The position numbers and the translations under genes are program-made. This document shows, piece after piece, positions 10,800 through 32,333 of a DNA stretch of 32,333 nucleotides. Position 1 is the stretch's first letter; every line of letters starts with the position of its first letter. The stretch covers positions 1 through 32,333 of the forward strand of contig NZ_WPCA01000015.1 of assembly GCF_009741825.1 (NCBI RefSeq), written 5' to 3'. Source of the stretch: Halapricum sp. CBA1109 (GTDB lineage Archaea > Halobacteriota > Halobacteria > Halobacteriales > Haloarculaceae). The notes under the pieces are model-generated. The model made no database searches and had not been told where the DNA came from. It saw nothing but the letters and a program-made list of their open reading frames with translations.

Positions 10800-12692
10800 T
10801 CAGCGGCCGTGTTTTGTCACGCACGTCGACAGGCCGATCAACTCGACCGGTTCGGAGTTGTCCGGCGAGTAGACGACCATCTGGCCTTTCTCCATGTAGG
10901 GCACCTTCGATTCGAGGTTGCTCGGGATGTTGACCGCCGAGATGGCGTCCTCGTCGCCGAGGTTGAGAACGGCGGTCGTGTTGATCTGTTTGAACACCGG
11001 GTCGGCGATGTCCTGTGGGTCCTGCGTGATGAGAAAGAGGCCCAGTCGCTCCTTGCGGCCCTGTTTCGCGGCGTCAGTGAACTTCCCGATGACCTTCCGG
11101 GCCTGGACGGTGTCGGCGTCGGTGAGGAAGTTGTGGGCCTCGTCCATCCCGACGATAAGCGGCGTCTCCTCGATGCGCTCGTAGCGGGGGTCGTTCGACA
11201 GTTTCTCGTCGACGATCAGCGACGCCAGCGCCAATACCACCGTCTCGGTCGCCCGCGAGTCGTTGATGTGGTAGGTCGGGACGACCGTCAGGCCGCCGGG
11301 GCGGACGAACTCGTGGATGCGGTCGGTGATGGGCCGGGCGTCCTGATCGAAGACGTTCCCGAACCCCTGCGCGCGCCGTCGGACAGCGTCGAAGGTGGCC
11401 TCGTGGACCTTCCCGCTCTCGTCCAACTCCTCCCGCAGCGCCGGGTCGTCGAGGAAGGAGATGAACTGTTCGTAGGTTCCGTCCTCGCCCGCTTGGGCCC
11501 AGAACCGCGGGAGGAGGACGTTCACCAGCGCCGCGTACTGGTTGTCGTTGAGGCCGCTCCCGGCGATGAGCCACGGGTTGCCCCGCACCATGGAAAAGGG
11601 GATGGTGAACGTGACCTGCTCGGCGCGGTGGTGGTCGGCGGCGTACGTCGACCCTGCTACTTCGGGGACGAACGCGACGGTGTCGTCGTGGCCGCCGCAG
11701 GCCACCCCCTCACGTTCACACCGGCGCTGGAACGCCGCGGGCAGTTCGCCGTCGTCGTGCATCTGGGCGTACTCGTCTTGGGGGTCGAAGACGACCATCC
11801 CCGGGGACACCTCGCGGTCGCCGCCCGCCTCGACCGGGTACGTCCGGTCCTCGGCGAGGTACTGCCGGAGGATGTTCTTCGCCCCGTGGGTCTTGCCCGA
11901 CCCGGTTCCCCCGGCGACCAGCGTGTGCCGGAAGACCAGCGGGTCCCCCGACTCGTAGTCGTCCTTGAGGCGGTAGTCGATGGTCGGTGGCTCGGCGGCG
12001 GTTCGGACCTTCTCGCCGCCGACTGCGAGGTGCCCGAGGAAGACGCCCTCGCCGGGCATCTTCAGCCCCGTCTTGATTTCAGTCGGGTCGTCGGCCTGCC
12101 GGACGACCGTCTCCGGTTTCGGGACGCGGTCGGTCATCCGCCGCTTGAGTTCGCCTGCTCGCGGCTCGTCGCCGCTCGCTTCTTCGGAGGCGCGTGGCGC
12201 CTCCCTGTCCTCGTACAGCACCGCCACCGGTTCCAGCGTCGCCATAAACTTGAAGTCCTGCTCGTCTATCTCGCGAGAGCGCATCGCCCGCCGGGCGTGA
12301 ATCTCGGTGGCGTCGTCGGCCCGGAACTCCTGTGCGTACTCAAGCGCCGTGATACGGCAGAAGAGCTTCTCGCCGTCGGGGTAGGGGACGAGGAGGTACT
12401 TCCCGATGCGGACGGCCGAACGGTTCCCGACGGTGATGTACGCCCGCAGACGGGTGTCGTCTTCGTCCTCGCTGATCGTCAGCCCCTCCGCCGCCGAGAG
12501 GACGCCGATGCCCGCGTCGCTCCCGGCCGGCGTGACCTCGACCGTCTCGAAGTCGTCGTCTCTGTCCCGTTCGGGCGGGTCGTCGTCGAGCACCTCGGCG
12601 TCGTCGTCCGGTGTCGATCCACCGCCGTCGTCCGCCGAAGCCGCCTGCTCGTCGTCGCCGTCGAAATCAGTGAAATCCCCGAGGTCGGACAT
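10800..12692 (-). CDS. herA: HerA-like DNA-translocating ATPase
   Basis: HerA is a hexameric ATP-driven DNA translocase that works with the nuclease NurA in double-strand-break end processing. The 630-aa protein has a long acidic N-terminal tail (1-50) and a HerA-type barrel region with LRAYITVGNRSAVRIGKYLL. The ATPase core follows, with Walker A GGTGSGKT (261-268), Walker B GMDEAHNF (DEAH 517-520) and the sensor segment LFLITQDPQDI. The frame is intact. Its usual partner nurA is also present in this window, but about 8 kb away (20441-21703) rather than adjacent. Confidence 0.88.
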   Translation of the reverse strand: MSDLGDFTDFDGDDEQAASADDGGGSTPDDDAEVLDDDPPERDRDDDFETVEVTPAGSDAGIGVLSAAEGLTISEDEDDTRLRAYITVGNRSAVRIGKYLLVPYPDGEKLFCRITALEYAQEFRADDATEIHARRAMRSREIDEQDFKFMATLEPVAVLYEDREAPRASEEASGDEPRAGELKRRMTDRVPKPETVVRQADDPTEIKTGLKMPGEGVFLGHLAVGGEKVRTAAEPPTIDYRLKDDYESGDPLVFRHTLVAGGTGSGKTHGAKNILRQYLAEDRTYPVEAGGDREVSPGMVVFDPQDEYAQMHDDGELPAAFQRRCEREGVACGGHDDTVAFVPEVAGSTYAADHHRAEQVTFTIPFSMVRGNPWLIAGSGLNDNQYAALVNVLLPRFWAQAGEDGTYEQFISFLDDPALREELDESGKVHEATFDAVRRRAQGFGNVFDQDARPITDRIHEFVRPGGLTVVPTYHINDSRATETVVLALASLIVDEKLSNDPRYERIEETPLIVGMDEAHNFLTDADTVQARKVIGKFTDAAKQGRKERLGLFLITQDPQDIADPVFKQINTTAVLNLGDEDAISAVNIPSNLESKVPYMEKGQMVVYSPDNSEPVELIGLSTCVTKHGR

Positions 12693-12752
12693 ACACGGGC
12701 AAACGGCGGCGACCCCTAAGGTCCTTCGGGGCCGTTCGCCGCCAGCGGTACG

Positions 12753-12869
12753 TCAGTGGGCCGCGTCGAGCGTCGTCACGACGGCGGCTGTCGCCCACTC
12801 CGGCCCTCGGTAGCTGTCTTTCCCGATGGCTCCTCGGAGGTCATCCCGGACCTTCCAGCGGCGTGACAT
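12753..12869 (-). CDS. Possible 38-aa ORF overlapping the PEBP gene end
   Basis: This frame encodes MSRRWKVRDDLRGAIGKD and ends TTLDAAH. It starts inside the last codons of the PEBP-like gene and runs 84 nt beyond its stop. The residue mix looks protein-like (RDDLRGAIGKDSYRGPEW), but I recognise no family. It could be a small gene, the tail of a decayed gene or chance. A second frame beginning with an ATGA overlap of the PEBP stop encodes only 22 low-complexity residues and is less convincing. Confidence 0.25.
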   Translation of the reverse strand: MSRRWKVRDDLRGAIGKDSYRGPEWATAAVVTTLDAAH

Positions 12870-13428
12870 CGCCGGCGCGAGCGTAGCTGACCGTCGTCCG
12901 CGTGCTGGCGAGGACCCGTCCCTCGGTGGCTTCGACGGCGTCTTCGTTGGTCGTCCCGCCGTCGATATCGAGTCGCCGGTCGAGCGCGTAGATCTGAAAG
13001 TCGTAGTCGTAGGTCTCGCCCGGCGGCGGGCACGGCGCACGGTAGCCCACCTCGCCCAGACGGACCCGGCCCTGCCGGGCACCGTCGAGCGACCCGACCG
13101 TCGGCTCCCGGGGGAGGTCCTCGGGGATGCGCTCGGTTTCGGGAGGGACGTTCCACAGCGTCCAGAGCAGCGACTGGTTGGCGATGTTCGAGGTGACCGT
13201 CGCGGTGACCATCACCGATGCCGTCGGTTCGGGCACCGACGAGAGGGTGACGGCCGGCGAGACGCCGTCCCCGTCACAGGAGAACCGAACCGGCAGTCGC
13301 CCACCGTCGTCAAGCGCCGGTAGGTCGGCCGACAGCGGCGACGCCGACTGCCGGGAGACGGTCACACAGCCACCGACAGCGGCGACCGCGCTCGTTCCGG
13401 CCGCAGCGAGGAACTGGCGACGTTGCAC
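12841..13428 (-). CDS. PEBP-family (YbhB/YbcL-like) lipoprotein
   Basis: A 195-aa secreted member of the phosphatidylethanolamine-binding/Raf-kinase-inhibitor-like family. The GTG start at 13428 gives MQRRQFLAAAGTSAVAAVGGC, a Tat signal with a lipobox. The PEBP domain shows RFSCDGDGVSPAVTLSSVPE (the family's usual DG-x-x-SP region), then LWTLWNVPPET and APCPPPGETYDYDFQIYALD, which match the family's ligand-pocket blocks. Upstream TTG or GTG codons would extend it to 13482 but would move the twin arginines away from the N-terminus. It is divergent from the EEP gene. The ligand is unknown. Confidence 0.85.
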   Translation of the reverse strand: MQRRQFLAAAGTSAVAAVGGCVTVSRQSASPLSADLPALDDGGRLPVRFSCDGDGVSPAVTLSSVPEPTASVMVTATVTSNIANQSLLWTLWNVPPETERIPEDLPREPTVGSLDGARQGRVRLGEVGYRAPCPPPGETYDYDFQIYALDRRLDIDGGTTNEDAVEATEGRVLASTRTTVSYARAGDVTPLEGPG

Positions 13429-13516
13429 GCTCGCGCTTGGACCGGCAGCCACTTGGCGGCGTCGGGTCGCGCCGCTTCCCAAACAGACTCAAAGGGTGGC
13501 CCCCACACTCGAAGTG

Positions 13517-14317
13517 ATGACCGAGTGGCTGCGCGTCATGACGTACAACGTCCGGTACGACAACCCCGAGGACGGGGACCACGGCTGGGACCACCGCCGG
13601 TCGGCGGTCGCGGACACTATCCGCTTTCGGGACCCGGACCTGCTCGGCCTCCAGGAACCGTTGACTCACCAGTTGTCGTACCTCCGCGAGCAACTCCCCG
13701 ACTTCGAGTTCGTCGGCGCGGCCCGTATGGACGGCGGCGACGAGGGCGAGTTCTCGCCCATCGGCTACCGCCCCGACCGCTTCGAGTGCCTCGACTCCTC
13801 GACGTTCTGGCTCTCGCCGACGCCCGACGAAGCAGGGTCGACCGGGTGGGACGCCCGCTACCCACGCATCGTGACGTGGGCGCGCCTGCGTGACCGGGCA
13901 AGCGACACCGTCTTCGTCCACGCCAACACCCACTTCTCCCACGACGGGCCCGAGGCGCGCCGCCAGAGCGCGCAACTGGTCCGCGAGCGCATCGACACCA
14001 TCACCGATGCCGAGCCACTCCTCCTCACTGGCGACTTCAACGCCATCGCCGGCGAACCGGGCTACGAACCGCTGGTCGACCCCGACCGCGGCCGCCGGAC
14101 GCTGACCAACGCCATCGACCGCTCGACCTACGGCCACCACGGCCCGCTGACGAGCGTCACCGACTTCGAGCGCCTCGTCCCCAACCGCAAGATAGACCAC
14201 GTCTTCGTCACCGACGGCGTCGACGTCCGCCAACACGGCGTCTGTACCGACCTCCGCACCGCCGAAGCCTACCCCTCCGACCACTTCCCGGTACTGGCCC
14301 AACTGTCCGTGGAGTAA
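13517..14317 (+). CDS. Endonuclease/exonuclease/phosphatase (EEP) family protein
   Basis: A 266-aa metal-dependent phosphoesterase with the DNase I-like fold. Visible motifs in order are MTYNVRYDN (N11), LLGLQEP (E47), HANTHFSH, LLTGDFNA (D and N catalytic pair), KIDHVFV and the terminal SDHFPV (catalytic His). The substrate is uncertain: family members hydrolyse nucleic acids, inositol phosphates or sphingomyelin, and this form most resembles the small phosphatase-type members. There is no signal peptide, so it should be cytoplasmic. An upstream in-frame extension to 13127 overlaps the PEBP gene antisense and is rejected. The ATG at 13517 gives the conserved beginning MTEWLRVMTYNVR. Confidence 0.9.
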   Translation: MTEWLRVMTYNVRYDNPEDGDHGWDHRRSAVADTIRFRDPDLLGLQEPLTHQLSYLREQLPDFEFVGAARMDGGDEGEFSPIGYRPDRFECLDSSTFWLSPTPDEAGSTGWDARYPRIVTWARLRDRASDTVFVHANTHFSHDGPEARRQSAQLVRERIDTITDAEPLLLTGDFNAIAGEPGYEPLVDPDRGRRTLTNAIDRSTYGHHGPLTSVTDFERLVPNRKIDHVFVTDGVDVRQHGVCTDLRTAEAYPSDHFPVLAQLSVE

Positions 14318-14351
14318 CCGACCGGTTCTATCCGGCGTATACAAGGAGAAA

Positions 14352-14358
14352 ACATATG
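14352..14358 (+). promoter_or_regulatory. TATA-like box for the 168-aa membrane protein
   Basis: ACATATG is centred 28 nt before the ATG at 14383, which favours that start over the in-frame ATG at 14356 that lies within the box itself. Confidence 0.4.
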
Positions 14359-14382
14359 CCGCCCCCTCGGACAGAGACCTGT

Positions 14383-14889
14383 ATGGACAGCGACCGCGCC
14401 GCCACTGCGGCGGTCGTCGTCGGTCTCCTGCTGGTCGTCGCCGGAGTCGGGTCCGTCGCGCTCGGACTGGGCGGGACCGAGTACTATCACGATGTCTGGG
14501 ACGTCGAGGATTCGCCCCCGAATGTGTCCGACGGGAACACGACCGACCGGCCCGACGGCGTGTATGCCCTCTCGAACCTCTCCGACCGGGGCCAGACGGC
14601 GGTCAACCGGACGCTGGACGGCTATTGGACCAACGGGAGCGGATACACCATCACGGACGAGAAACAGCTCCCGCCGGAGTTCTTCTACGAGACTGATGCC
14701 CCGAGCCCCGGACACGGTATCTACTACGTCGAGTATCGCGGGATATACTACGAAATCGTGACGGGGTCGTCGTGGCAACCCCTCTCGCCGCTGGTTCTCG
14801 TCGGATTCCCCACTGCGCTGTTCGGCGTCGTCATCGGCTTGCTCGGCCTCGTATCCTCGGTCTTCCGCCGCGGTAGCAGCGAGGGCTGA
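14383..14889 (+). CDS. Haloarchaeal membrane protein with two flanking helices and an extracytoplasmic domain
   Basis: A 168-aa protein starting MDSDRAATAAVVVGLLLVV. One helix spans residues about 7-33 and a second about 131-158, with an extracytoplasmic middle of roughly 95 residues that is rich in Tyr, Asn and Asp and has several N-x-S/T sites (NVS, NTT, NLS, NRT, NGS). That region contains YALSNLSDRGQTAVNRTLDG, a segment I recall from other haloarchaeal two-helix proteins, without a function. It is the last ordinary gene before the repeat-bounded island. The function is unknown. Confidence 0.75.
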   Translation: MDSDRAATAAVVVGLLLVVAGVGSVALGLGGTEYYHDVWDVEDSPPNVSDGNTTDRPDGVYALSNLSDRGQTAVNRTLDGYWTNGSGYTITDEKQLPPEFFYETDAPSPGHGIYYVEYRGIYYEIVTGSSWQPLSPLVLVGFPTALFGVVIGLLGLVSSVFRRGSSEG

Positions 14890-14943
14890 TCGTCCCCCGC
14901 CACGCACCTCTGGAGGTCTATCGGCGCCCATTCCGCACTCGGA

Positions 14944-15075
14944 TCACTGTTCAAAGCCGTCCTCGAACCGGAAGGTCCCGTCGCGCTGGATCACCTCGCC
15001 GTCGACCTCGATGCGGGAGTCCTCGCTCATATCGACGATCATATCGGTGTGAATCGCCGAGTCGTTGCCCTCCCG
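14944..15075 (-). pseudogene. Orphan 3' end of an M29 aminopeptidase gene
   Basis: Forty-three codons plus TGA, in frame, encode the C-terminal end of an M29 aminopeptidase (REGNDSAIHTDMIVDMSEDS...), the same sequence found at the end of the full gene at 18930-20017. The copy ends FRFEDGFEQ, whereas the full gene ends FRFEE, so the last residues differ. There is no upstream part, so it cannot be a working gene. It is the left of two 116-bp repeats that enclose the AT-rich island. It is most simply the original gene end left behind when the island entered. Confidence 0.85.
14960..15075. repeat. Left copy of the 116-bp direct repeat
   Basis: Matches 18934-19049 in the same orientation over 116 bp with two mismatches (at 14991 and 14995: T/C and C/T). 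Similarity ends abruptly on both sides. It derives from the 3' end of the aminopeptidase gene. See the candidate island entry. Confidence 0.95.
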
Positions 15076-15183
15076 CCGCGGTGGCACCAAGGGCTGATTC
15101 CCGGCACTTCCCACCCGGCGTCAGTCGATCCAGTAGCGCTTGAGACGGGTTATCGGCCGATCTAACCTCGAAATATAATAGTA

Positions 15184-15208
15184 TATGGGTTGAATGAACC
15201 CCATTTAT
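15184..15208. repeat. Imperfect palindrome upstream of the peptide gene
   Basis: ATGGGTT and AACCCCAT flank a five-base spacer (GAATG) with one extra C, and AT-rich arms extend the symmetry. It lies just before, and partly within, the first TATA-like box of the peptide gene, where a repressor or activator could act. No binding protein is known, and chance symmetry is possible. Confidence 0.35.
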
Positions 15209-15246
15209 ATATACGTGCACTATTACAAATACTAAAATTTATATTT
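15202..15246 (+). promoter_or_regulatory. Two TATA-like boxes upstream of the candidate precursor peptide
   Basis: TTTATATATAC (15204-15214) and AATTTATATTTG (15236-15247) lie in tandem. The second is centred about 32 nt before the ATG at 15274, giving a leader of at most a few bases; the first would give a leader of about 40 nt. Both read toward the small peptide gene and away from the aminopeptidase remnant. Confidence 0.5.
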
Positions 15247-15273
15247 GATGTCGAACTACTGTTCTTTGCAGCA

Positions 15274-15381
15274 ATGGCAAAGAGTCACTTCAACCCTGAC
15301 CTAGAGCAGATTAATGAAGACGACGAACCGAAGAAAAACGAAGCGATGCGAATGACCCACAACGGCCACGTCGCTACGTAA
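15274..15381 (+). CDS. Small peptide, candidate RiPP precursor
   Basis: A 35-codon ORF starting MAKSHFNPDLEQINEDDEP and ending MTHNGHVAT. It is very hydrophilic, with seven Asp/Glu concentrated in residues 9-22 and Ser/Thr/Lys at positions 3, 4, 20, 21, 28 and 35. These are the two side-chain classes that graspetide ATP-grasp enzymes join as esters or amides. It has no Cys. A well-placed TATA-like box precedes the ATG, and strong hairpins follow the stop. An in-frame TTG upstream (15190) would add a hydrophobic segment, but it lies across the promoter elements and is rejected. It is convergent with the ATP-grasp gene, 91 nt away. The precursor role is inferred from size, composition and neighbours. 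Confidence 0.55.
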   Translation: MAKSHFNPDLEQINEDDEPKKNEAMRMTHNGHVAT

Positions 15382-15402
15382 CGACACTTAGACCGTCATT
15401 GT

Positions 15403-15437
15403 GGGGAGTACTTTGAATTCCTTCAAAGGCACTCCCC
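15403..15437. terminator. Strong hairpin between the peptide gene and the ATP-grasp gene
   Basis: The arms GGGGAGT-CTTTGAA (15403-15417) and TTCAAAG-ACTCCCC (15422-15437) form 14 base pairs with a four-base loop and a small A/GC internal bulge. It lies 22 nt after the peptide stop and 36 nt after the (corrected) stop of the convergent ATP-grasp gene. A second small hairpin with a T-run (ATCCG...CGGAT, 15442-15458) follows at once. This fits a bidirectional terminator or 3'-end stabiliser, although archaeal terminators often need only T-runs. Confidence 0.6.
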
Positions 15438-15472
15438 CCCAATCCGGATTTTTCGGATACATCTTCAGTACG

Positions 15473-16410
15473 TCACGAGGCGGGACTCGTGAGATACGTC
15501 GCAAGTGCTTCCGCTATCTGGAGATCAGTTGTTCGCTCCATCTCCCCGAAGTTCGGGGCTTCGTTGAGTTCTAACATCTTGAATTCACCGTCCGATTGGA
15601 GTCGAATATCGACACCGGCAACGTCAATCCGATCTCGTTAGTTGCTTCTTTTACAATTTTCTTGATGTGTGTCGGAACCGTGATGGACTCCTTCTGTACG
15701 TTCTCGCTCTCTGCAAGCTTGAAAGAGAATGAATCGCTCGTGTACTTTACCGCACCTACAACCGTTCCATCTACAACAAATACACGAACATCGTCGCCCG
15801 GAGCGAAGGCTTGGAACTGGACTGGAGCCGTTTCCAGGTGCTCTAATCGTTCTTGGGTCAAGTCCTCCTCTGTGAGTTCATATGGCTTACCCCCTCTAGT
15901 CACCGGTTTGTATATGACTCGAGTATGGTCTTCAACGAACTCTTTGACTGTACTCGGGTCCGTTGTGAACACTGTCTCAGGGGTCGGGACGTCCAGTTGC
16001 GCCAGTACCTCAAGCTGGTATGGTTTCCGATCCTGGAGGTAGTGATTCTGTAGTGGTACGATGACGTTCCGAGAACGGGAATCGAGGATTCCGCAGAGTC
16101 CTTCAAACATCGCTCGATATTCTCGAATCTGATTTAGCCCTGCATCAAAGTCGTCGAGAAGACGATCTCGAATCCTGTTTTCGAATGGATGTAACAAATG
16201 ATGTGGTACGATATACGCTCCTCTAACTGTCTCTAAATCTATTTCTTCGCCAAAGATAGCTGTTTCTTTTCCGGGTTCTAAAGAAAGCGGTGAACCACCC
16301 GGCCAATTTTGTACATTGATGAGAACGGCATCGTGTCCCTTCTTTTCTATCTCTTCGGCTAGTAAATCGAACTCACCAGCGTGTCCAATCCCGATGAGTA
16401 GTACCGTCAT
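15473..16410 (-). CDS. RimK/graspetide-type ATP-grasp ligase, one frameshift near the 3' end
   Basis: Enzymes of this class activate a carboxylate as acyl phosphate and join it to an amine or hydroxyl; graspetide members cross-link side chains of a precursor peptide. Visible features are the N-terminal domain (MTVLLIGIGHAGEF), the linker DRKPYQLEVLAQLDVPTPET, the ATP-binding YKPVTRGG (K168), the nucleotide-binding strand region VQFQAF and DDVRVFVVDG (R209). The first frame stops at 15571. One added base at about 15620-15626 switches it to VAGVDIRLQSDGEFK and the Mg-binding LELNEAP (E281, N283), ending at 15473 to give about 312 aa of normal family length. A minus-strand TATATAT at 16436-16442 places the start. 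Confidence 0.8.
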
Positions 16411-16435
16411 TCATAATTCTATTATAAATACCTCC

Positions 16436-16442
16436 ATATATA
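16436..16442 (-). promoter_or_regulatory. TATA-like box for the ATP-grasp gene
   Basis: TATATAT is centred about 29 nt before the ATG at 16410 in a very AT-rich 119-nt gap. A second box (TATTTATAA, 16422-16430) is too close to serve the same start. The gap implies that the ligase has its own promoter rather than depending on the methyltransferase transcript. Confidence 0.45.
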
Positions 16443-16529
16443 CCTTTAGAACATAAGTAAATCATAACTAATATTCTTTAATATTTATGCCGATAATAAT
16501 CTGGGGTAGGTGCTTCTCTTTCCCCATCC

Positions 16530-17309
16530 TTAGGAACTCTTTACGACGATTCCTGTCTGTAGACCGTGATCGTTGTCGCTGTGTCGCGCCGCCTCCAGTT
16601 CTATGTTTAGTATCTCTTCTTGATTATTGCTGAGTATGTCGTCCTGTCTATCCACGGGGACGTAGCCTAAGTAGCTAACTTTTGGATATATGTCTACTAG
16701 TTCGATGCCGGAGGCCTGTGTCAGATAGGAGCGTATCTCGTCGGTGTTCTGTGTCTGTATCGTGATGCTATCTGATGTCGTAAGCTCGTTTTCATCGACT
16801 ATTTTCTGGAACTGGTCCCACTGTCCGTTCCACAAACTAAACACTGCATACCGGTACGATGTTATGACTGAAATGAATCCGTATCCGTCATCGGTTACGC
16901 TATCTCGGACGATCTCGAAAATATCTAATGGAGTGGTCAAGTGAGACATCACACCACCCTCTGCAAGCACAACGTCGTATTGATCGGTAGCCTCGAACGA
17001 TTCGATATCTTGGTTTCGAACGGTGAAATCGTCTATCGGACTACTTTCGAGTAATCTTCTGGCGTGAGAAGTCATTTCTTCTGATGAATCTACTGCTGTC
17101 ACGTGGGTTACGTCTAGATCCATCGAAAGCCTACGGGTAACGCTGCACTTACCACACCCCAAATCAAGAATAGATAGCGAGGGAGCTCCCTCTGTGATGT
17201 AGTCTTTGATGCGTGATGTGGTCACTTCGAGATACAGTTTCCCGAGTGGTGATTGATAGAAGCTACCGTACTCTTCCGCAATATCCTCGTATGATGAACT
17301 ATCAGTCAT
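16530..17309 (-). CDS. Class I SAM-dependent methyltransferase
   Basis: A 259-aa Rossmann-fold methyltransferase. Motif I is LDLGCGKC (47-54), followed by VTAVDSSEEM (the acidic residue binding the SAM ribose), NQDIESFEA and YDVVLAEGGVMSHL (motif II region). The C-terminal half has no recognised family and may bind the substrate. It is unlike the PIMT-type O-methyltransferases that accompany some bacterial graspetides. The ATG at 17309 is preferred over the GTG at 17318 because a TATATAG box (17331-17337) lies about 26 nt upstream. It is 46 nt from the MFS gene on the same strand and has AT-rich codons. Inferred role: tailoring or capping a peptide, or self-protection. Confidence 0.82.
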   Translation of the reverse strand: MTDSSSYEDIAEEYGSFYQSPLGKLYLEVTTSRIKDYITEGAPSLSILDLGCGKCSVTRRLSMDLDVTHVTAVDSSEEMTSHARRLLESSPIDDFTVRNQDIESFEATDQYDVVLAEGGVMSHLTTPLDIFEIVRDSVTDDGYGFISVITSYRYAVFSLWNGQWDQFQKIVDENELTTSDSITIQTQNTDEIRSYLTQASGIELVDIYPKVSYLGYVPVDRQDDILSNNQEEILNIELEAARHSDNDHGLQTGIVVKSS

Positions 17310-17355
17310 TTCTCCCACTTTCTATATTCGCTATATACATTTAAATTACTAATCA

Positions 17356-18681
17356 TCACTTAGCAGTAGAATCGAACAGCTCTTGATTCGCATTAGTCAC
17401 TGCTGGCAACGATCGTATCTCGGAGCTGAGCCCAAAGTAGAGGCCAAGCAATACGAGTGACCCACCGGCCGTGTACATCACAGGAAGGACTCCAATCTGT
17501 GCGGCACCAATCCCGCCAAGTAGCGACCCCACGGGAAGCAGTCCACCCGAGAACGTCCGAAGGAGAGACATGACTCGTCCGAGAAGGGCATCTTCGACGC
17601 CTGCCTGTATCGTAGACACGAACAGCACCTCGAATATCCCAACTGGGACCATCGACAGGAACAATAGTGCTGCTGTTACCCCGAGTCCCGGTGCGGCGAT
17701 TGAGCCAATCCAGAGAACTCCAGCAGTCATCATACCGACAGTCGCGACCGTGCCCAGCGAGTAGTCTTCAACGAGGAACGACACCGCTGTTCCTAGCAGT
17801 GTTCCAGCCCCGAGAGCGCCCATCAAAACGCCGTACGCTGTCGGTCCACTCAGCGAATCCGCGAACGTCGGCATAATCGTTGTTCCAGCCATAATACCGA
17901 TGTTCGAGATCATCAGTCCAGCCATCATCGGCAGTAATACTGTCCCTCGAATGTAGGAGATGCCTTCCCTGAGATCTGTTCCGTACTGTTTTATTTTCTT
18001 CTTTCTGCTGGCTGTGTTCTTCTCTTCAGTAGCAGACTGTCCGGACCCTTGGTCTGTATTGGTTCGTGACGGAATCGTGAGAGTGAAAAACAATAGGAGG
18101 GCGATAGCGAACGTCCCCGCATTCAACAGGAACAACGATACGGCACCGATAACCGAAATAAGGACTCCGGCAATGGCGTTCGCCCCTGCGTCAACACCTC
18201 CAAGCGTCGTGCTGAACAAGGAGTTCGCTCTCGGTAGTTCTTCCTCCTCGACGATACGCGGCAGGACCGAATCTTGGGCCGGATACACGATTTCGTTCAC
18301 TAGCTGGAGAATCGGGATAAGGAGGAGAATCAGCCAGACAGACAGGACATCGAAACCGGCTGCGAGCGGCACGATCAACATACCGAGTCCGTTGATCAAC
18401 TGGGTACTGACGAGTAGTTTCCTGACCTCGATGACATCGATCAAGGGTCCATAGAGAAACGTAAAGAGGCGTGACACATTCACCAACGCCCCAGCGAGAC
18501 CAACGTAGAACGGGTTCTGCGTGAGATCCCAAACCAACCACATCGCTCCAATGTAGTAGAGGCTATCTCCGAAATCAGTGATTACACGTCCCGAGAACAT
18601 CTTCTGAAACGTTCTGTTTCGGAGGATCCACCGGAATCCGTCAACTCGGAGAGCGCCGGCCACTCGTGAACGAACACCCAT
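17356..18681 (-). CDS. MFS transporter, probable exporter
   Basis: A 441-aa major facilitator superfamily protein of the enterobactin-exporter-like (MFS_3) type. About 12 helices are visible. The first half contains SGRVITDFGDSLYYIGAMWLV and the conserved loop GPLIDVIEVRKLL, a central hydrophilic segment TDQGSGQSATEEKNTASRKK separates the halves, and the second half begins LREGISYIRGTVLLPMM. It is the first gene of the minus-strand set MFS, methyltransferase, ATP-grasp, and a TTTTTATT box lies about 30 nt before the ATG. Composition is intermediate between the AT-rich island core and the host. Export of the modified peptide is the natural inference, but relatives also export drugs and siderophores. 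Confidence 0.82.
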   Translation of the reverse strand: MGVRSRVAGALRVDGFRWILRNRTFQKMFSGRVITDFGDSLYYIGAMWLVWDLTQNPFYVGLAGALVNVSRLFTFLYGPLIDVIEVRKLLVSTQLINGLGMLIVPLAAGFDVLSVWLILLLIPILQLVNEIVYPAQDSVLPRIVEEEELPRANSLFSTTLGGVDAGANAIAGVLISVIGAVSLFLLNAGTFAIALLLFFTLTIPSRTNTDQGSGQSATEEKNTASRKKKIKQYGTDLREGISYIRGTVLLPMMAGLMISNIGIMAGTTIMPTFADSLSGPTAYGVLMGALGAGTLLGTAVSFLVEDYSLGTVATVGMMTAGVLWIGSIAAPGLGVTAALLFLSMVPVGIFEVLFVSTIQAGVEDALLGRVMSLLRTFSGGLLPVGSLLGGIGAAQIGVLPVMYTAGGSLVLLGLYFGLSSEIRSLPAVTNANQELFDSTAK

Positions 18682-18774
18682 CTGATACTCATAAGTCCTT
18701 GTCCATTCAAAGAATAAAAAACTCGTGAAAGGCGTTCAAAAAACTGGGCTGATTGCTCGGGTGGTATATCTCCT

Positions 18775-18929
18775 GCAGGGCTCACTCCGTTCACCCTGCC
18801 TCCCTCACGGGTCGCTTCGCTCCCCGTTCGTTCTTTCGTGGGCCTCACTCCGTTCGGCCCACCTATTGCTCGCGGTTCCCTACGGTCACCGCTCGCTTAT
18901 CCGTGGGCGCTCCTGGTGGTCGCGCCCAC
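18775..18929. repeat. Cluster of GC-rich hairpins at the right island edge
   Basis: Four inverted repeats stand in a row: GCAGGG/CCCTGC (18775-18780, 18794-18799), GTGGGCC/GGCCCAC (18838-18844, 18856-18862), GCGGT/ACCGC (18872-18876, 18888-18892) and GTGGGCGC/GCGCCCAC (18903-18910, 18922-18929). The loop sequence TCACTCCGTTC occurs in the first two. The last hairpin begins one base after the aminopeptidase stop, so it may terminate that gene. The 18682-18929 gap holds no gene I can support. Confidence 0.7.
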
Positions 18930-20017
18930 CTACTCCTCGAACCGGAAGGTCCCGTCGCGCTGGACCACTTCGCCGTCGACCTCGATGCGGGAGTCCTCGC
19001 TCATATCGACGATCATATCGGTGTGAATCGCCGAGTCGTTGCCCTCCCGGTCGGGGCCGACGCAGTCGTCGTAGGCCATCCCGAGGGCGAGGTGGACGGT
19101 GTCGCCCATCTTCTCGTCGAACAGCATATGTAGGTGAACCGGTCGATGTCGCGGTTCATCCCGATGCCCAACTCGCCGAGGCGGCGCGCGCCGTCGTCGG
19201 TCTCCAACATCGCGGTCAGGGTGTCCTCGTTCTTCTCGGCGCTGTGTTCGACCACTTCGCCGTCCTCGAAGAGGAGGTAGGCGTCGGTGATCTCGACGCC
19301 CTGGGTGATCACGGGCATATCGAAGGTCACCTCACCCGTGACGGAGTCGGGGACGGGCGCGGTGAACACCTCGCCGCCGGGGAGGTTGGTCTCGCCGTAG
19401 TCGTTGACCGCCTCCATCCCGTCGATGGACAGTTCGATGTCGGTGGTCTCCCCCGAGACGATGCGGACGGTGCTGGCGTCCTCGAGGATGTCGACGAGGT
19501 TCGACTGGAACTCCCGTTGGGCCGCCCAGTCTTTCGTGACGGCGTCGTAGACGAAGTCGGCGTAGGCGTCGGTGCTCATCTCGGCCTCTTGGGCGTTGGC
19601 GGGCGCGGGGTACTGCGTTCCGACCCACCGCTTGTCCATGATCTCGTTGCGGACCGGTTCGAGCATCGCCTGCAGGGCGGCGTGGGTCTCCGGCGGCACG
19701 TCGCTCATCTCGCGGGTGTTGGTCGCCGCCCGGACGCTGATGGCCGCGTCGACGTTGTCCGCGATGGCCTGTAGCGCCTCGGGTGGGTCGTCGTAGGCTT
19801 CGGGATCCATCGCGCTGACCAAGGCGCGGCCGGCCCGGCCCCCGCCGAGGAGGCTCGCCTGCACCGGAAACGCACCCTTCGCGGCTATCTGTTCGTTGAG
19901 GGCGACGAGGAGGTCCTCCGCCACCGGCGGGACCGAGACCAGCACCTCGTCCCCCGGTCCGATGTCCGCCGAGTGCTCTACGAGTATCCGCGCGTGTTCC
20001 TCGACACGTGGGTCCAT
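18930..20017 (-). CDS. M29-family metallo-aminopeptidase, one frameshift near the 3' end
   Basis: Thermophilic-type (PepS/AmpS-like) aminopeptidase that removes N-terminal residues from peptides using two metal ions. The N-terminal part starts MDPRVEEHARILVEHSADI. Family blocks are GEVFTAPVPDSVTGEVTFD, LGELGIGMNRDID, MLFDEKMGDTVHLALG and DSAIHTDMIVDM, which carry the usual Glu, His and Asp ligands. The main frame ends wrongly at 19013. One base added at about 19128-19131 (ACATATG read as ACAATATG) joins TY to NMLFDEKMG and carries the protein to FRFEE at 18930, about 362 aa. Its 3' end is the right copy of the 116-bp repeat. Confidence 0.85.
18934..19049. repeat. Right copy of the 116-bp direct repeat
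   Basis: The same sequence as 14960-15075 with two mismatches, forming the 3' end of the intact aminopeptidase gene. Past its right end the gene continues normally, whereas the left copy runs into unrelated DNA. Confidence 0.95.
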
Positions 20018-20100
20018 ACGTCATCAGGGTGACGCGGTACGGTGATAAAACTCGGTGGGCTGTCGGGCACTTTTTGCCCGGCGGCGACCTACACGGTGGT

Positions 20101-20439
20101 ATGCTTCTAGTCCGGGGTCACGCTGGCGGGACGGCGCTGACGGGCACGCTGTACGAACCCGGCGACGACCCGCCGTCCTACCGCGGTGCGCCCGACGAGG
20201 GCACGCCCTACGTCTGGGTGTGTGACGCCTTCTACGAGGTGGAAAGCGGCGGCCAGACACAGCGTATCGACGGCCGGGAGGTCAACGTCGCCTTCGAGTC
20301 GCCCAGTCCCCGCGGGTTCGAGGACCGCGACCGGGCGCTGTCGGCCGCCCGCGAGCACCTCCGCACGCAGTTCCAGCGGATCGGTGTCGACCCCGACACC
20401 GTCGACGTCGAACTGATCGAGGACGACGAGGCGGCCTGA
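20101..20439 (+). CDS. Conserved haloarchaeal protein (probably DUF7113)
   Basis: A 112-aa acidic soluble protein starting MLLVRGHAGGTALTGTLYEPG, with a conserved-looking core PYVWVCDAFYEVESGG and a C-terminal helix (EHLRTQFQRIGVD) ending in acidic residues. It resembles a haloarchaeal family I recall as DUF7113 (unverified). No function is known. An in-frame start at 20008 is rejected because the added residues look random and the conserved sequence begins at the ATG at 20101. Its TGA and the NurA stop are separated by one base in convergent orientation. Confidence 0.72.
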   Translation: MLLVRGHAGGTALTGTLYEPGDDPPSYRGAPDEGTPYVWVCDAFYEVESGGQTQRIDGREVNVAFESPSPRGFEDRDRALSAAREHLRTQFQRIGVDPDTVDVELIEDDEAA

Positions 20440-20440
20440 C

Positions 20441-21703
20441 TTAGACGCCCATATCCTCCAGCGAGACGCCCCAGCGCTCGTCGTTGTAGGTGCGCTGGCG
20501 CTCGCTGTCGAAGCGCTGTTCGATGGTCCGGGTGAGCATCTCCTTTCCCTGGCGGTCTATCTTCGCCAGTTCGTCGGCCTTGGCGACGGCCAGCGGCGGT
20601 CCTTGTTCGGCGGCCACGTCCCGCAGGACCTGCATCGTCAGTCGCTCGCGCAGGTCGGGGTCTGTGGTGAACGCCGCCGGGGCCTCCACGCGAAAGAGCA
20701 GGTCCGTCCGCGGGTCGTAGACGGCGAAGAACGTCACCTCGTAGGCCCCCCGGTCCAGCGGCCGGTCGTCCATATCGACGACGTCGGACCCCTGTTCGGA
20801 GAGCAGGCGGTCTGTTCCCAGCCGCGAGCGGAACCAGTTGGTGTAGGTCAGCACGTCCTCGCGCTGCTCACCGTCCTCGTAGCACTCGAGGATGCGCGAA
20901 AAGAGTGCGGTGTCGTTGGCCCACGGCGCGTTGGTCTTCGACCGGACCGCCCGCGTGATGGCGTTTGCGGAGCTGTTCTTGACGAATCCGATCAGCGGCA
21001 CGTCCCGCTCGACGAAGCGGTCGACGAGGTCGAGGTAATTCTCGACGACGGTCTGTGGCGTCTCGTGGTCGGCCAGCAGGTCCGCCAGTTCGGGGTGGCG
21101 GTCGGTCCACTTCAGGATGCCCGTAGGGTAGATGGGACCGTCGAGCACGAGGAGGTCCTCGACCACGTCGGCCTGCAGGAGGGCGTGGTGGCTCTCGGCG
21201 AGGTACAGCGCCAGTGCGTGGACGACGGTCTGGGCGTAGCGGTCGACCCGCGGGACCTGGAGGATGCGCCGGCGGGTGTACCCCTCGTCGAAGGGAATCC
21301 AGTCCTCGGCGCCCACGTCGACGGTCACGTCGTTGGCGTGGGCAGTCATCACCACCGTCCGGGCGCGGTGGAGTTCCATATCCGAGGGGACGGCGCTCAT
21401 CGCCGCTTGAGCCACGTCGAGCACGAGGCCGTTCTCGAAGGTGGTCGGGTTGATGGTCCCCGAGTCCAGTCCGTGCTGGGTCGGGAACGGCGACTCACGG
21501 AGGGCTACGTCCTGTACGTCGACCCGCCGGCGGACCTGCTCGTCCATCGGGGTCAGCACTGCTTGGTCGTCGACGTACAGCGGGTCGAGGAAGTCCTCCC
21601 AGACGGTTTCGGCCAGCGCCCGGTGGTCGGTGTCGGCGACTCGCTGGCTGATCAGCGTCGCCAACTGCGCGATGCCGTCGACGTGCACCGGGTCGAGTGT
21701 CAT
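20441..21703 (-). CDS. nurA: NurA-type 5'-3' nuclease
   Basis: NurA resects DNA ends together with the HerA translocase. The 420-aa protein has the two acidic nuclease blocks of the NurA domain: GLDSGTIN (D80) and LLVLDGPIYPTG (D188), the latter followed by the DRHPELADLLADHETP region. GFVKNSSANAI and a C-terminal AKADELAKIDRQGKEML segment complete the fold. Haloarchaeal NurA is of this length. The gene is intact and lies about 8 kb from herA, with a smaller conserved gene (21744-22133) 40 nt upstream on the same strand. The annotation is strong on motif order and on the presence of HerA in the neighbourhood. Confidence 0.87.
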   Translation of the reverse strand: MTLDPVHVDGIAQLATLISQRVADTDHRALAETVWEDFLDPLYVDDQAVLTPMDEQVRRRVDVQDVALRESPFPTQHGLDSGTINPTTFENGLVLDVAQAAMSAVPSDMELHRARTVVMTAHANDVTVDVGAEDWIPFDEGYTRRRILQVPRVDRYAQTVVHALALYLAESHHALLQADVVEDLLVLDGPIYPTGILKWTDRHPELADLLADHETPQTVVENYLDLVDRFVERDVPLIGFVKNSSANAITRAVRSKTNAPWANDTALFSRILECYEDGEQREDVLTYTNWFRSRLGTDRLLSEQGSDVVDMDDRPLDRGAYEVTFFAVYDPRTDLLFRVEAPAAFTTDPDLRERLTMQVLRDVAAEQGPPLAVAKADELAKIDRQGKEMLTRTIEQRFDSERQRTYNDERWGVSLEDMGV

Positions 21704-30465: not shown

Positions 30466-30609
30466 ATCCTGCCTTCGGGCGCCGACAGGAAAACACACCG
30501 CTTGGCGGCGACCCAGGGTGTCGGCCGGTTCGTACGGATATTCGCTATCGCTGAATGGGGAATCTCGTCAGTTTTGCGTATCATAGGAAGCTTCGAATGG
30601 ACTTCCTGT

Positions 30610-30710
30610 GCAAGTCTTGTCCGGACTTGCGTGCAAGATACAGGGCGCGAATCTTGCACAGATTCTTCGGATCAGTAATATTTATTCGATTGACAAATGT
30701 AGTCGAATAA
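30610..30710. repeat. Three tandem inverted repeats
   Basis: GCAAGTC/GACTTGC (30610-30616, 30624-30630), GTGCAAGAT/ATCTTGCAC (30631-30639, 30651-30659) and TTATTCGA/TCGAATAA (30682-30689, 30703-30710) follow one another closely. They lie in the 261-nt gap between the RimK-like gene start and the stop of the AT-richer membrane protein gene. The third is 17 nt past that stop and could be its terminator; the first two share the word GCAAG. No ORF in this gap is supported. Confidence 0.65.
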
Positions 30711-30726
30711 AGCACACTTCGGTAGA

Positions 30727-31524
30727 TCAGGTATCGTCGTAGTAAGTTCCCGGACCTCTGAGGTTGGGTGCGACGTCGAAAAGTTCTGGTTTCGTGTATT
30801 CCTCTCCGTGTCGGATTATTGAATCTACACCAAGGTGGCGTTGTACTTCCACTTTTCGTAGCTTGAGGAAGTGGCGTCCAGTATTTTTTGTTCTCATCAA
30901 ATGATCATAGTAAATCTCGATCTGGTACACGACCTCCTTAATGTCCCTGTCGTCAAGATCATTCATTAGGTAGCCGAGTCGGCTTTCACCCTCCCCGTCC
31001 AGCCGAGGTGTACGGATCGCTGCTGCAAGTTTACCTACCTGTCCCGGAGATAAGCTTCCGATTTCAGCTGCTTCTCCGGCAGGAACATCCACAGCGTCTG
31101 AATCCGCAGAATGCGTCAAACTATCGCCTTCCGAGTCAACAGTGATATTCTGATCTTCAACGTAGAAGTGTAGCCTGATACCCATATCCCTCATCGGCCC
31201 GTTTCCGATATTCCGCATCTTCGGCCACAGGAACTGACCGTAGGAATCAATATCAAGAACTTGCAATATCGGTTCGTGGCTGGCCTCCATTAACCTCTGT
31301 TGTCCTTTCTGGAGTTCATTCTGGCTGCCTTGCCTAACCGCCAGCACGCCGTAGACCCCGATCAGAAGTACGGAGGTGACGAAACTGAGCCCAATACTCA
31401 ATAGCTGGAGATTGTTCGAGGTATCCGCGTACGGGGACAGGCTATAGAGAAAAACCAGAGCGAGGAGGAGAAAAACTGCGGCACCGATCACAGCAACCGT
31501 CATCACGATTCTGTCTCGTTGCAT
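30727..31524 (-). CDS. Two-helix membrane protein with soluble C-terminal domain, unknown
   Basis: A 265-aa protein starting MQRDRIVMTVAVIGAAVFLL. Two helices (about 7-28 and 42-63) are followed by a polar segment QGSQNELQKGQQRLMEASHEP and a roughly 190-residue cytoplasmic-looking domain. That domain contains MRNIGNGPMRDMGIRLHFYV (a NxGxGP-then-beta pattern common in membrane-attached beta-sandwich domains) and a basic stretch near VYQIEIYYDHLMRTKNTGRHFLKL. Codon use is AT-richer than in flanking genes, suggesting an accessory gene. A TATAATT box (minus strand, reads AATTATA, 31551-31557) lies about 29 nt upstream. I recognise no family and assign no function. Confidence 0.7.
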   Translation of the reverse strand: MQRDRIVMTVAVIGAAVFLLLALVFLYSLSPYADTSNNLQLLSIGLSFVTSVLLIGVYGVLAVRQGSQNELQKGQQRLMEASHEPILQVLDIDSYGQFLWPKMRNIGNGPMRDMGIRLHFYVEDQNITVDSEGDSLTHSADSDAVDVPAGEAAEIGSLSPGQVGKLAAAIRTPRLDGEGESRLGYLMNDLDDRDIKEVVYQIEIYYDHLMRTKNTGRHFLKLRKVEVQRHLGVDSIIRHGEEYTKPELFDVAPNLRGPGTYYDDT

Positions 31525-31727
31525 ATCTTATCGGACTCATCCAGTAGCCCTATAATTCTTGATGAACTCCGAAGAAGTGCTTTTCATCCATACAAGGTAT
31601 ATCCTCTGTATCTTGACCTGCTCTTGTAATCATATCCAGTCTAGTATATTCTCTACCCGTTTGCATCCTTTCGAGACCGACGGTAACAGCTCTCTCACAC
31701 TCCAGCAGCTTGGCACAGCAGACAGTA
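31525..31727. other. AT-rich intergenic stretch
   Basis: Apart from the promoter of the 265-aa gene (31551-31557) I see no gene or clear repeat here. A plus-strand frame starting at 31559 exists, but its later half merely mirrors the glycosyltransferase gene. The sharp return to GC-rich sequence at about 31728 marks the edge of the accessory patch. Confidence 0.5.
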
Positions 31728-32333
31728 TCAGACCGGCGTCGCCGTCGGCAGGACCTGCGCGTACACCGAACAGAGGCGGTCGACGGCGTGTTCGACGCTG
31801 TTGGTGTCCCGCGTGTCGAGGCAGTTCTCGCTGAGTCGCTCCCGTTCGTCCAGCGCCCGTTCGAGCAACCGGCGGAAGGCGTCGATATCGCCGCGGGGAT
31901 AGTGATAGCCCGTCACGCCGTCGTCGATGGTGTCCGAGAGCGCGCCGCTGTCGACGCCGACGACCGGCGTCCCACAACTGTTGGCCTCCAGCGCGACCAG
32001 TCCTTGAGTTTCGACGGGGCTGGGGAAGGCAAAGACGTCGAGCACCGAGTAGAAGGCGGGCAACTCCTCGCGGTCGAGAAAGCCCAGGAATCGAACGTCC
32101 CGGTCACGGCGCTCGGCGCGGGCCTCCAGTTCCTCGCGGGCGGGGCCGTCGCCGCCGAAGACGACCGTCGCGTCCATTCCGGCGGTGGCGTCGAGGATGT
32201 CCGTGAGGCACTTCTCGAAGCCGTGGCGGCCGGTGTAGCCGACCAGCGGGCCCTCGCCGAGGTCGTACTTTTCGCGGAACTCCTCGGTGTCGACGGGCCG
32301 GAAGATATCGGTGTCGACGCCGTTCGGGACGAC
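31728..32333 (-). CDS. Glycosyltransferase family 4-like, C-terminal part (truncated by window edge)
   Basis: Transfers a sugar from a nucleotide-sugar donor to a glycan or lipid. The 201 codons present read through the right edge in frame. They begin VVPNGVDTDIFRPVD, the hinge typical of GT-B retaining enzymes, then LVGYTGRHGFEKCL, FGGDGPAREEL, VRFLGFLDREELPAFYSVLD and the donor-binding FAFPSPVETQGLVALEANSCGTPVV (E of the E-x7-E motif), ending at VLPTATPV. The acceptor is unknown. The N-terminal domain lies outside the window. Confidence 0.9.
   Translation of the reverse strand, partial: VVPNGVDTDIFRPVDTEEFREKYDLGEGPLVGYTGRHGFEKCLTDILDATAGMDATVVFGGDGPAREELEARAERRDRDVRFLGFLDREELPAFYSVLDVFAFPSPVETQGLVALEANSCGTPVVGVDSGALSDTIDDGVTGYHYPRGDIDAFRRLLERALDERERLSENCLDTRDTNSVEHAVDRLCSVYAQVLPTATPV

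Follow-up and report, generated by a model that had tools for sequence, protein, structure and literature searches.

The DNA considered here, called the window below, is the stretch from position 1 to 32,333 of contig NZ_WPCA01000015.1 of Halapricum sp. CBA1109 (GCF_009741825.1), a metagenome-assembled genome (MAG) of 266 contigs that is 78.65% complete. Around its middle, an island of 41–56% GC set between flanks of 64–70% GC carries a 35-codon ATG open reading frame (ORF; 15274–15381, plus strand) for a putative precursor peptide, MAKSHFNPDLEQINEDDEPKKNEAMRMTHNGHVAT, and next to it a gene for an ATP-grasp ligase of the graspetide-synthetase type (15571–16410, minus strand), beyond which lie genes for a methyltransferase and a transporter. 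The initial annotation of this DNA described the island and the peptide gene beside the ligase just as they were found, and proposed that all four genes specify a ribosomally synthesized and post-translationally modified peptide (RiPP). The locus is probably a copy of a minimal haloarchaeal RiPP system, made up of a precursor and an ATP-grasp enzyme of the graspetide-synthetase kind and usually accompanied by an M50-like protease. This interpretation is drawn from sequence, and the side-chain bonds that it entails are putative.

The ligase family

With the window ligase as query, relatives were found in 16 of 392 genomes of the class Halobacteria (~4%); a scan of genome contigs with this ligase alone gave one locus, and further members came from a search of the source genome's own family. 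Halorussus, the genus of genome G147 (G, L and C prefix our numbers for genomes, loci and contigs), has a member in 10 of its 18 genomes. A profile search sharply delimits the family by score: its matches reach E ≤ 1e-85, a single one follows at 1e-33, and RimK-type paralogues come at 1e-27 and weaker. The loci at which a precursor accompanies the ligase number 24 besides the window, and are spread over four GTDB families. Outside the class, only weak matches (E about 1e-31) were returned by a phylum-level search, and viral contigs, searched with a single protein, gave no relatives.

What are these ligases closest to? Searched against the PDB, an 18-member profile scored 245 bits with 7drm, 85–97 bits with MdnB/MdnC/CdnC-type enzymes and 9bou, ~63–69 bits with RimK-type enzymes and ~47 bits with LysX. 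Entries 7DRM–7DRP, the first of them labelled in the search only as an ATP-grasp protein, we take to be PsnB, the plesiocin synthetase. The TIGR04187 and MvdC/MvdD models match all 20 aligned members. By these comparisons the family is nearest to graspetide synthetases and set apart from RimK-, LysX- and glutathione-type enzymes; clustering with small-molecule enzymes, which the initial annotation had named as a finding that would undo its proposal, was not what the scores gave (245 bits against ~65).

In a tree the window ligase is nearest to those of L083 and L085 (support 89/91) and stands on a long end branch (0.85), and the ligases of its subclade form one family with those of a second subclade, distinguished below by TTxxxxEE precursors. 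Two further observations concern the make-up of the group. Loci L026, L086 and L089, from Halorussus-type genomes, each have a tandem pair of divergent ligase paralogues and a single precursor, whose leader is TFIEAL and whose core is TQHTS/TMYTS. More divergent TIGR04187-like ATP-grasps, outside the main clade, occur in Halobacteria at L036, L037 and L090, where no precursor bearing the HF..DL motif was found.

The precursor peptides

Precursors were sought by looking in short ORFs beside the ligase relatives for the HF..DL motif of the window peptide, and a leader matrix then added three (L023, L024 and L032). Leaving aside the window and L020, a precursor gene of ~28–60 codons adjoins the ligase at 24 of 24 main-clade loci; L020, a degenerate-looking MAG locus, is the only one where none was found. 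The initial annotation's fear of homologous ligases consistently lacking the peptide can thus be laid aside. The total is 27, with that of the window included. They have in common a leader of the HF[IV]E[DE]L type and are variable at their C-termini, as illustrated by L021 (MKHFVEDLNESDVEDVENRTNTVVSTPITWFGG), L084 (MDHFIEELGEDDVSEVESRKNTRVTCPLSC), L027 (HFVEDLEERSNATTLGDVTTLATGECPEKCW) and L034 (HFVEDLEERTNASIATPTTLAVGEEGGGGPITMACFETGC). At L091 (4710–5551) three tandem precursor genes lie beside one ligase, their leaders near-identical and their cores different. The precursor genes are unannotated in the two plasmid records checked.

The association also emerges when the ligase is left out of the search. 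When the 392 genomes were scanned with a DNA pattern encoding HF[IVM]E[DE][LF][DENK][DE], 12 matches came up, 9 of which lie beside these ligases; the reversed-pattern control gave 2. Five pairs of related precursors were compared, and in each of them nonsynonymous change falls below synonymous change (pN<pS), which bears out the conservation of the peptide frame that had been looked for. Of the 27 precursors, 17 carry a TTTAW box 33 to 40 nt before the start, against 4.9% of background ATGs in AT-rich DNA. Comparison of the loci thus shows that ligase and precursor genes go together, that the leaders are conserved and the C-termini variable, that the ligases are kin to graspetide synthetases and that there is a promoter signature, and at the level of the family the occurrence in archaea of a short precursor beside a graspetide-type ATP-grasp ligase is strongly supported.

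Two kinds of core can be told apart. TTxxxxEE, which we take to be the core motif of plesiocin, is present in the precursors of L032, L034, L035, L091a and L091b. The window falls in the Halorussus-type subclade, whose precursors repeatedly show the block ExR[DE]N[T]xxxT instead.

A putative membrane protease as partner

Elsewhere in the family the ligase has a recurrent neighbour of ~300 amino acids, a putative M50-type membrane protease with HExxH and P...GDG motifs, in which H141, E142, H145, P233, G237, D238 and G239 are invariant among the 14 aligned members. Pfam Peptidase_M50 matches 12 of the 14 (best 3e-5), the partner in Halorussus salilacus is annotated as an M50 family metallopeptidase, and site-2-type M50 enzymes are membrane proteins characterized by HExxH and NP..GDG motifs. 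Its N-terminal domain is suggestively, not convincingly, PqqD-like, that is, like a RiPP recognition element: comparison with haloarchaeal PqqD by hhalign gave P 4.7e-4 but a probability of only 32%. Where a ligase locus has no M50 gene, the genome may encode one elsewhere, as do G394, G147 and G453; G392 has only a weak M50 match. The other flanking genes scanned at the family loci are mostly ordinary chromosomal genes.

How well does the window fit?

The window peptide has the leader HFNPDLEQ and is close in length to the other precursors, and a TATA-like box, TTTAT (15238–15242, plus strand), stands 36 nt ahead of its ATG, at the spacing that TTTAW has in the family. Its gene is convergent with that of the ligase and lies just past the 3′ end of the latter, as at L083, L085 and L022. 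Its leader score is reached by 2 of 2,134 background ATG ORFs, none of which combines such a score with a TTTAW box at −33 to −40, and other candidate ORFs in the same intergenic space score ≤0.5.

There are several points that weigh against counting the window as a member of the system described, and they concern the peptide, the ligase and the core in turn. The leader score of the window peptide is the lowest of the set (8 bits, against 12–25 for the others), and a full-length profile hidden Markov model (HMM) of the other precursors misses it, whether the window or the whole genome is searched. Given this miss, its membership stands on leader, position and promoter taken together, from which it very probably belongs to the precursor family. 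That it should be a chance ORF that happens to adjoin a small-molecule RimK-type ligase might be argued from its shortness and from the failure of the profile HMM, but against this stand the pairing of ligase and precursor throughout the family, the kinship of the ligase with graspetide synthetases and the joint statistic for leader and promoter; the notion is largely refuted at the level of the family and for the window is highly improbable.

The ligase is compromised as assembled. The best NCBIfam match of its 279-residue open frame is TIGR04187, ‘ATP-grasp ribosomal peptide maturase’ (E 4e-14), followed by MvdC (2.5e-12), both scoring far under the curated cut-offs (for TIGR04187, 52.5 bits against 350), and Pfam RimK matches at E 1e-6. 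These matches uphold the class, RimK/graspetide-type ATP-grasp, that it had been given initially, but the ORF is not intact. The frame stops at 15571 in a tail (...LPVSIFDSNRTVNSRC) without homology to its relatives, and breaks ~50 residues ahead of the natural end. When compared with the C-termini of relatives, the conserved C-terminus (MLELNEAPNFGEME..., MLELNEAPNFGEMERTTDLQIAEALATYL; ELNEAPNF...) is recognizable in another frame at 15473–15577 (minus strand), and among the conserved positions in this displaced stretch are D270, E283 and N285 (numbered on the first sequence of the alignment). A 1-nt frameshift would lie at approximately 15620–15645 (minus strand), where relatives keep the register ...GL.F.GVD[IV]R...; it takes away conserved C-terminal residues and leaves the active site incomplete. 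In addition, the window lacks an M50 gene, and none was found in the source genome, which is incomplete.

Either the frameshift is an assembly error or the gene has recently been inactivated or is dying. An indel error is plausible, not proven, in view of the MAG source and of a similar break in the adjacent M29 aminopeptidase gene (18930–20017), where a 1-nt frameshift is indicated near 19127, within ~3.5 kb of that in the ligase. The window copy could be the decaying remnant of a real family, its ligase a pseudogene and its peptide drifting, and this has to be taken seriously, if at somewhat less than even chances: the frameshift removes conserved residues, the peptide's leader scores weakly, the end branch of the ligase is long and the genome gave no M50 gene. 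Against decay, past the frameshift the C-terminus still reads as an open and well-conserved stretch, which makes any break recent or an error of assembly; the break in the M29 gene suggests indel errors in this MAG; and the peptide has retained its promoter and start.

The remaining difficulty is with the core. Known graspetides have the nucleophile ahead of the acid (PMC7823629). The order Ser/Thr/Lys then Asp/Glu is seen in the TTxxxxEE subclade but not at L021, L025, L084 and L087, whose cores, after ExRxN, are without Asp/Glu following the conserved Thr, although in all of these the boundary of leader and core is only predicted. The predicted core of the window peptide, EAMRMTHNGHVAT, which follows KKN, has no Thr/Ser/Lys then Asp/Glu either, so that classical graspetide cross-links in it are putative. 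Several cores thus lack an acid after Thr, contrary to the nucleophile-before-acid rule, and for the window's subclade a bond from Thr to a later acid is no more than one candidate.

It is conceivable, though we lean against it, that the same RiPP system performs another ligation in this subclade: it might link the Glu/Asp-rich stretch, acid first, to the core Thr, activate the carboxylate at the peptide's C-terminus, or attach an amine or amino acid from outside the peptide, instead of making Thr-to-Glu esters within the core. The absence of any Asp/Glu from the four cores just named, and of one after Thr in that of the window, would fit, as would the varied C-termini and the conserved ExR(D/E)N(T) block, which places acids ahead of Thr. 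On the other side, Asp does follow Thr at L026, L083, L085, L086 and L089 of the same subclade, and its ligases and those accompanying TTxxxxEE precursors make up a single family.

Neighbouring genes and the island

Do the methyltransferase and the transporter take part? Both are present as first described: Pfam matches identify a class I S-adenosylmethionine-dependent methyltransferase at 16530–17306 (Methyltransf_25, E 3e-13), on the same, minus, strand as the ligase and upstream of it, and an MFS transporter at 17356–18681 (minus strand; MFS_3/MFS_1, E 1e-21). Their joint action with the peptide, as in the cluster first proposed, is not supported by comparison with relatives. Neither gene is present at any of the other ligase-family loci examined, the MFS relatives on haloarchaeal plasmids sit in unrelated contexts, the methyltransferase has no match on the plasmids searched, and its NCBIfam and Pfam matches list no TIGR04188 or PCMT. 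Both were rejected as parts of the system for want of recurrence; what stands of the proposed cluster is the peptide beside a graspetide-type ligase, a pairing found family-wide. A single functional cluster of peptide, ligase, methyltransferase and exporter is suggested by the close spacing of the last three on one strand, in one AT-rich island between direct repeats; with no recurrence of either gene at family loci, MFS relatives in other settings and a methyltransferase that is a generic class I enzyme, it is nonetheless unlikely.

A 116-bp direct repeat, 98% identical in its two copies and not mentioned in the initial annotation, flanks the island on both sides, as expected for an inserted cassette. 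The repeated sequence belongs to the adjacent M29 aminopeptidase gene, of which it is the 3′ end: the right copy (18934–19049) is inside that end and the left (14960–15075) duplicates it. The arrangement resembles the attachment repeats around an element that has integrated at the 3′ end of a gene; no integrase was recognized between the repeats.

On a larger scale, the ligase–precursor cassette is between or beside herA and nurA in the window (10800–21703) and at L034, L035 and L091, a placement that they have in common though the window ligase is not closest to the ligases of those loci. The herA/nurA neighbourhood is a possible insertion hotspot for the cassette. Genomes of the same genus retain NurA but not the HerA side, hence a clean empty site could not be demonstrated. 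A second AT-rich stretch, of 48–58% GC, occurs near the end of the window (30500–32000). Elsewhere in the source genome a PqqD-family protein (L125, C197:40117–40314; 74.5 bits) probably marks another PqqD-linked or RiPP-like locus.

A possible mechanism and relation to known graspetides

For the system as preferred here, precursor and graspetide-synthetase-like ligase usually with an M50-like protease, the ligase would bind the N-terminal HF..DL leader and use ATP to phosphorylate a carboxylate of the peptide, which would then condense, losing water, with the side chain of a Ser, Thr or Lys. By analogy with plesiocin, side-chain esters are the likeliest product of the TTxxxxEE precursors (L032, L034, L035 and L091), where they may be plesiocin-like double esters. 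The membrane protease would cut off the leader; in the case of the window it would be missing or supplied from elsewhere in the genome. The small product may act extracellularly, perhaps by inhibiting proteases as known graspetides do.

Among the closest known systems is the plesiocin type, with PsnB. The likeness lies in a single ATP-grasp that falls by sequence into one group with the synthetase (245 bits to 7drm), in a short precursor with a conserved leader and, in one archaeal subclade, in TTxxxxEE cores. The differences are that the present family is archaeal, that its precursors are of 28–60 amino acids with mostly a single core, that the window's subclade lacks the TTxxxxEE core, and that no C39/NHLM-type transporter was seen, the partner being an M50-like membrane protease. 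A more radical formulation, which we consider possible but doubtful, is of a haloarchaeal branch of leader-guided ligases in which the window's subclade joins its peptide in a manner unlike bacterial graspetides (acid-first, C-terminal or intermolecular, on cores that have no Asp/Glu downstream) and a membrane-embedded M50 protease replaces the C39 transporter.

Graspimiditides such as fuscimiditide are made with a TIGR04187-type ligase and a TIGR04188 isoaspartyl-type methyltransferase. The present ligases match TIGR04187 and in the window a methyltransferase is adjacent; it is, however, Methyltransf_25-like rather than of the PIMT type, without a TIGR04188 match and not conserved in the relatives. 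Microviridins (MdnB/MdnC, MvdC/MvdD) likewise depend on a leader and on ATP-grasp macrocyclases, though ones more distant (85–97 bits), and the present family has neither their PFFARFL leader nor their TxKxPSD core. Archaeal lanthipeptides and other archaeal RiPPs (PMC12144867, PMC10105419) are haloarchaeal too, with Halorussus rich in both, but are the work of another enzyme class.

The archaeal RiPP classes in the searchable literature are of the lanthipeptide, YcaO, radical-SAM and lasso types, with no archaeal graspetides among them. A survey of 174 graspetide families contains no word starting ‘halo’ (PMC8939145), and one of archaeal RiPPs mentions neither graspetides nor ATP-grasp (PMC12144867). 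A literature search, which subscription papers were outside of, found no paper on graspetides in Halobacteria, and priority is accordingly not certain.

Perspective

The ligase and peptide pairs of haloarchaea appear to be a previously unnoticed family that resembles the bacterial graspetides. Being compact and repeatedly sampled, with 27 precursors from 24 loci and the window, it offers ligase–precursor pairs that are directly testable. The protease that removes the leader of a graspetide has in most cases long gone unidentified (PMC8939145, PMC12291112); the M50-like protein is a candidate leader-cleaving membrane protease for peptides of this kind. Some of the cores, as predicted, depart from the residue order usual in graspetides.

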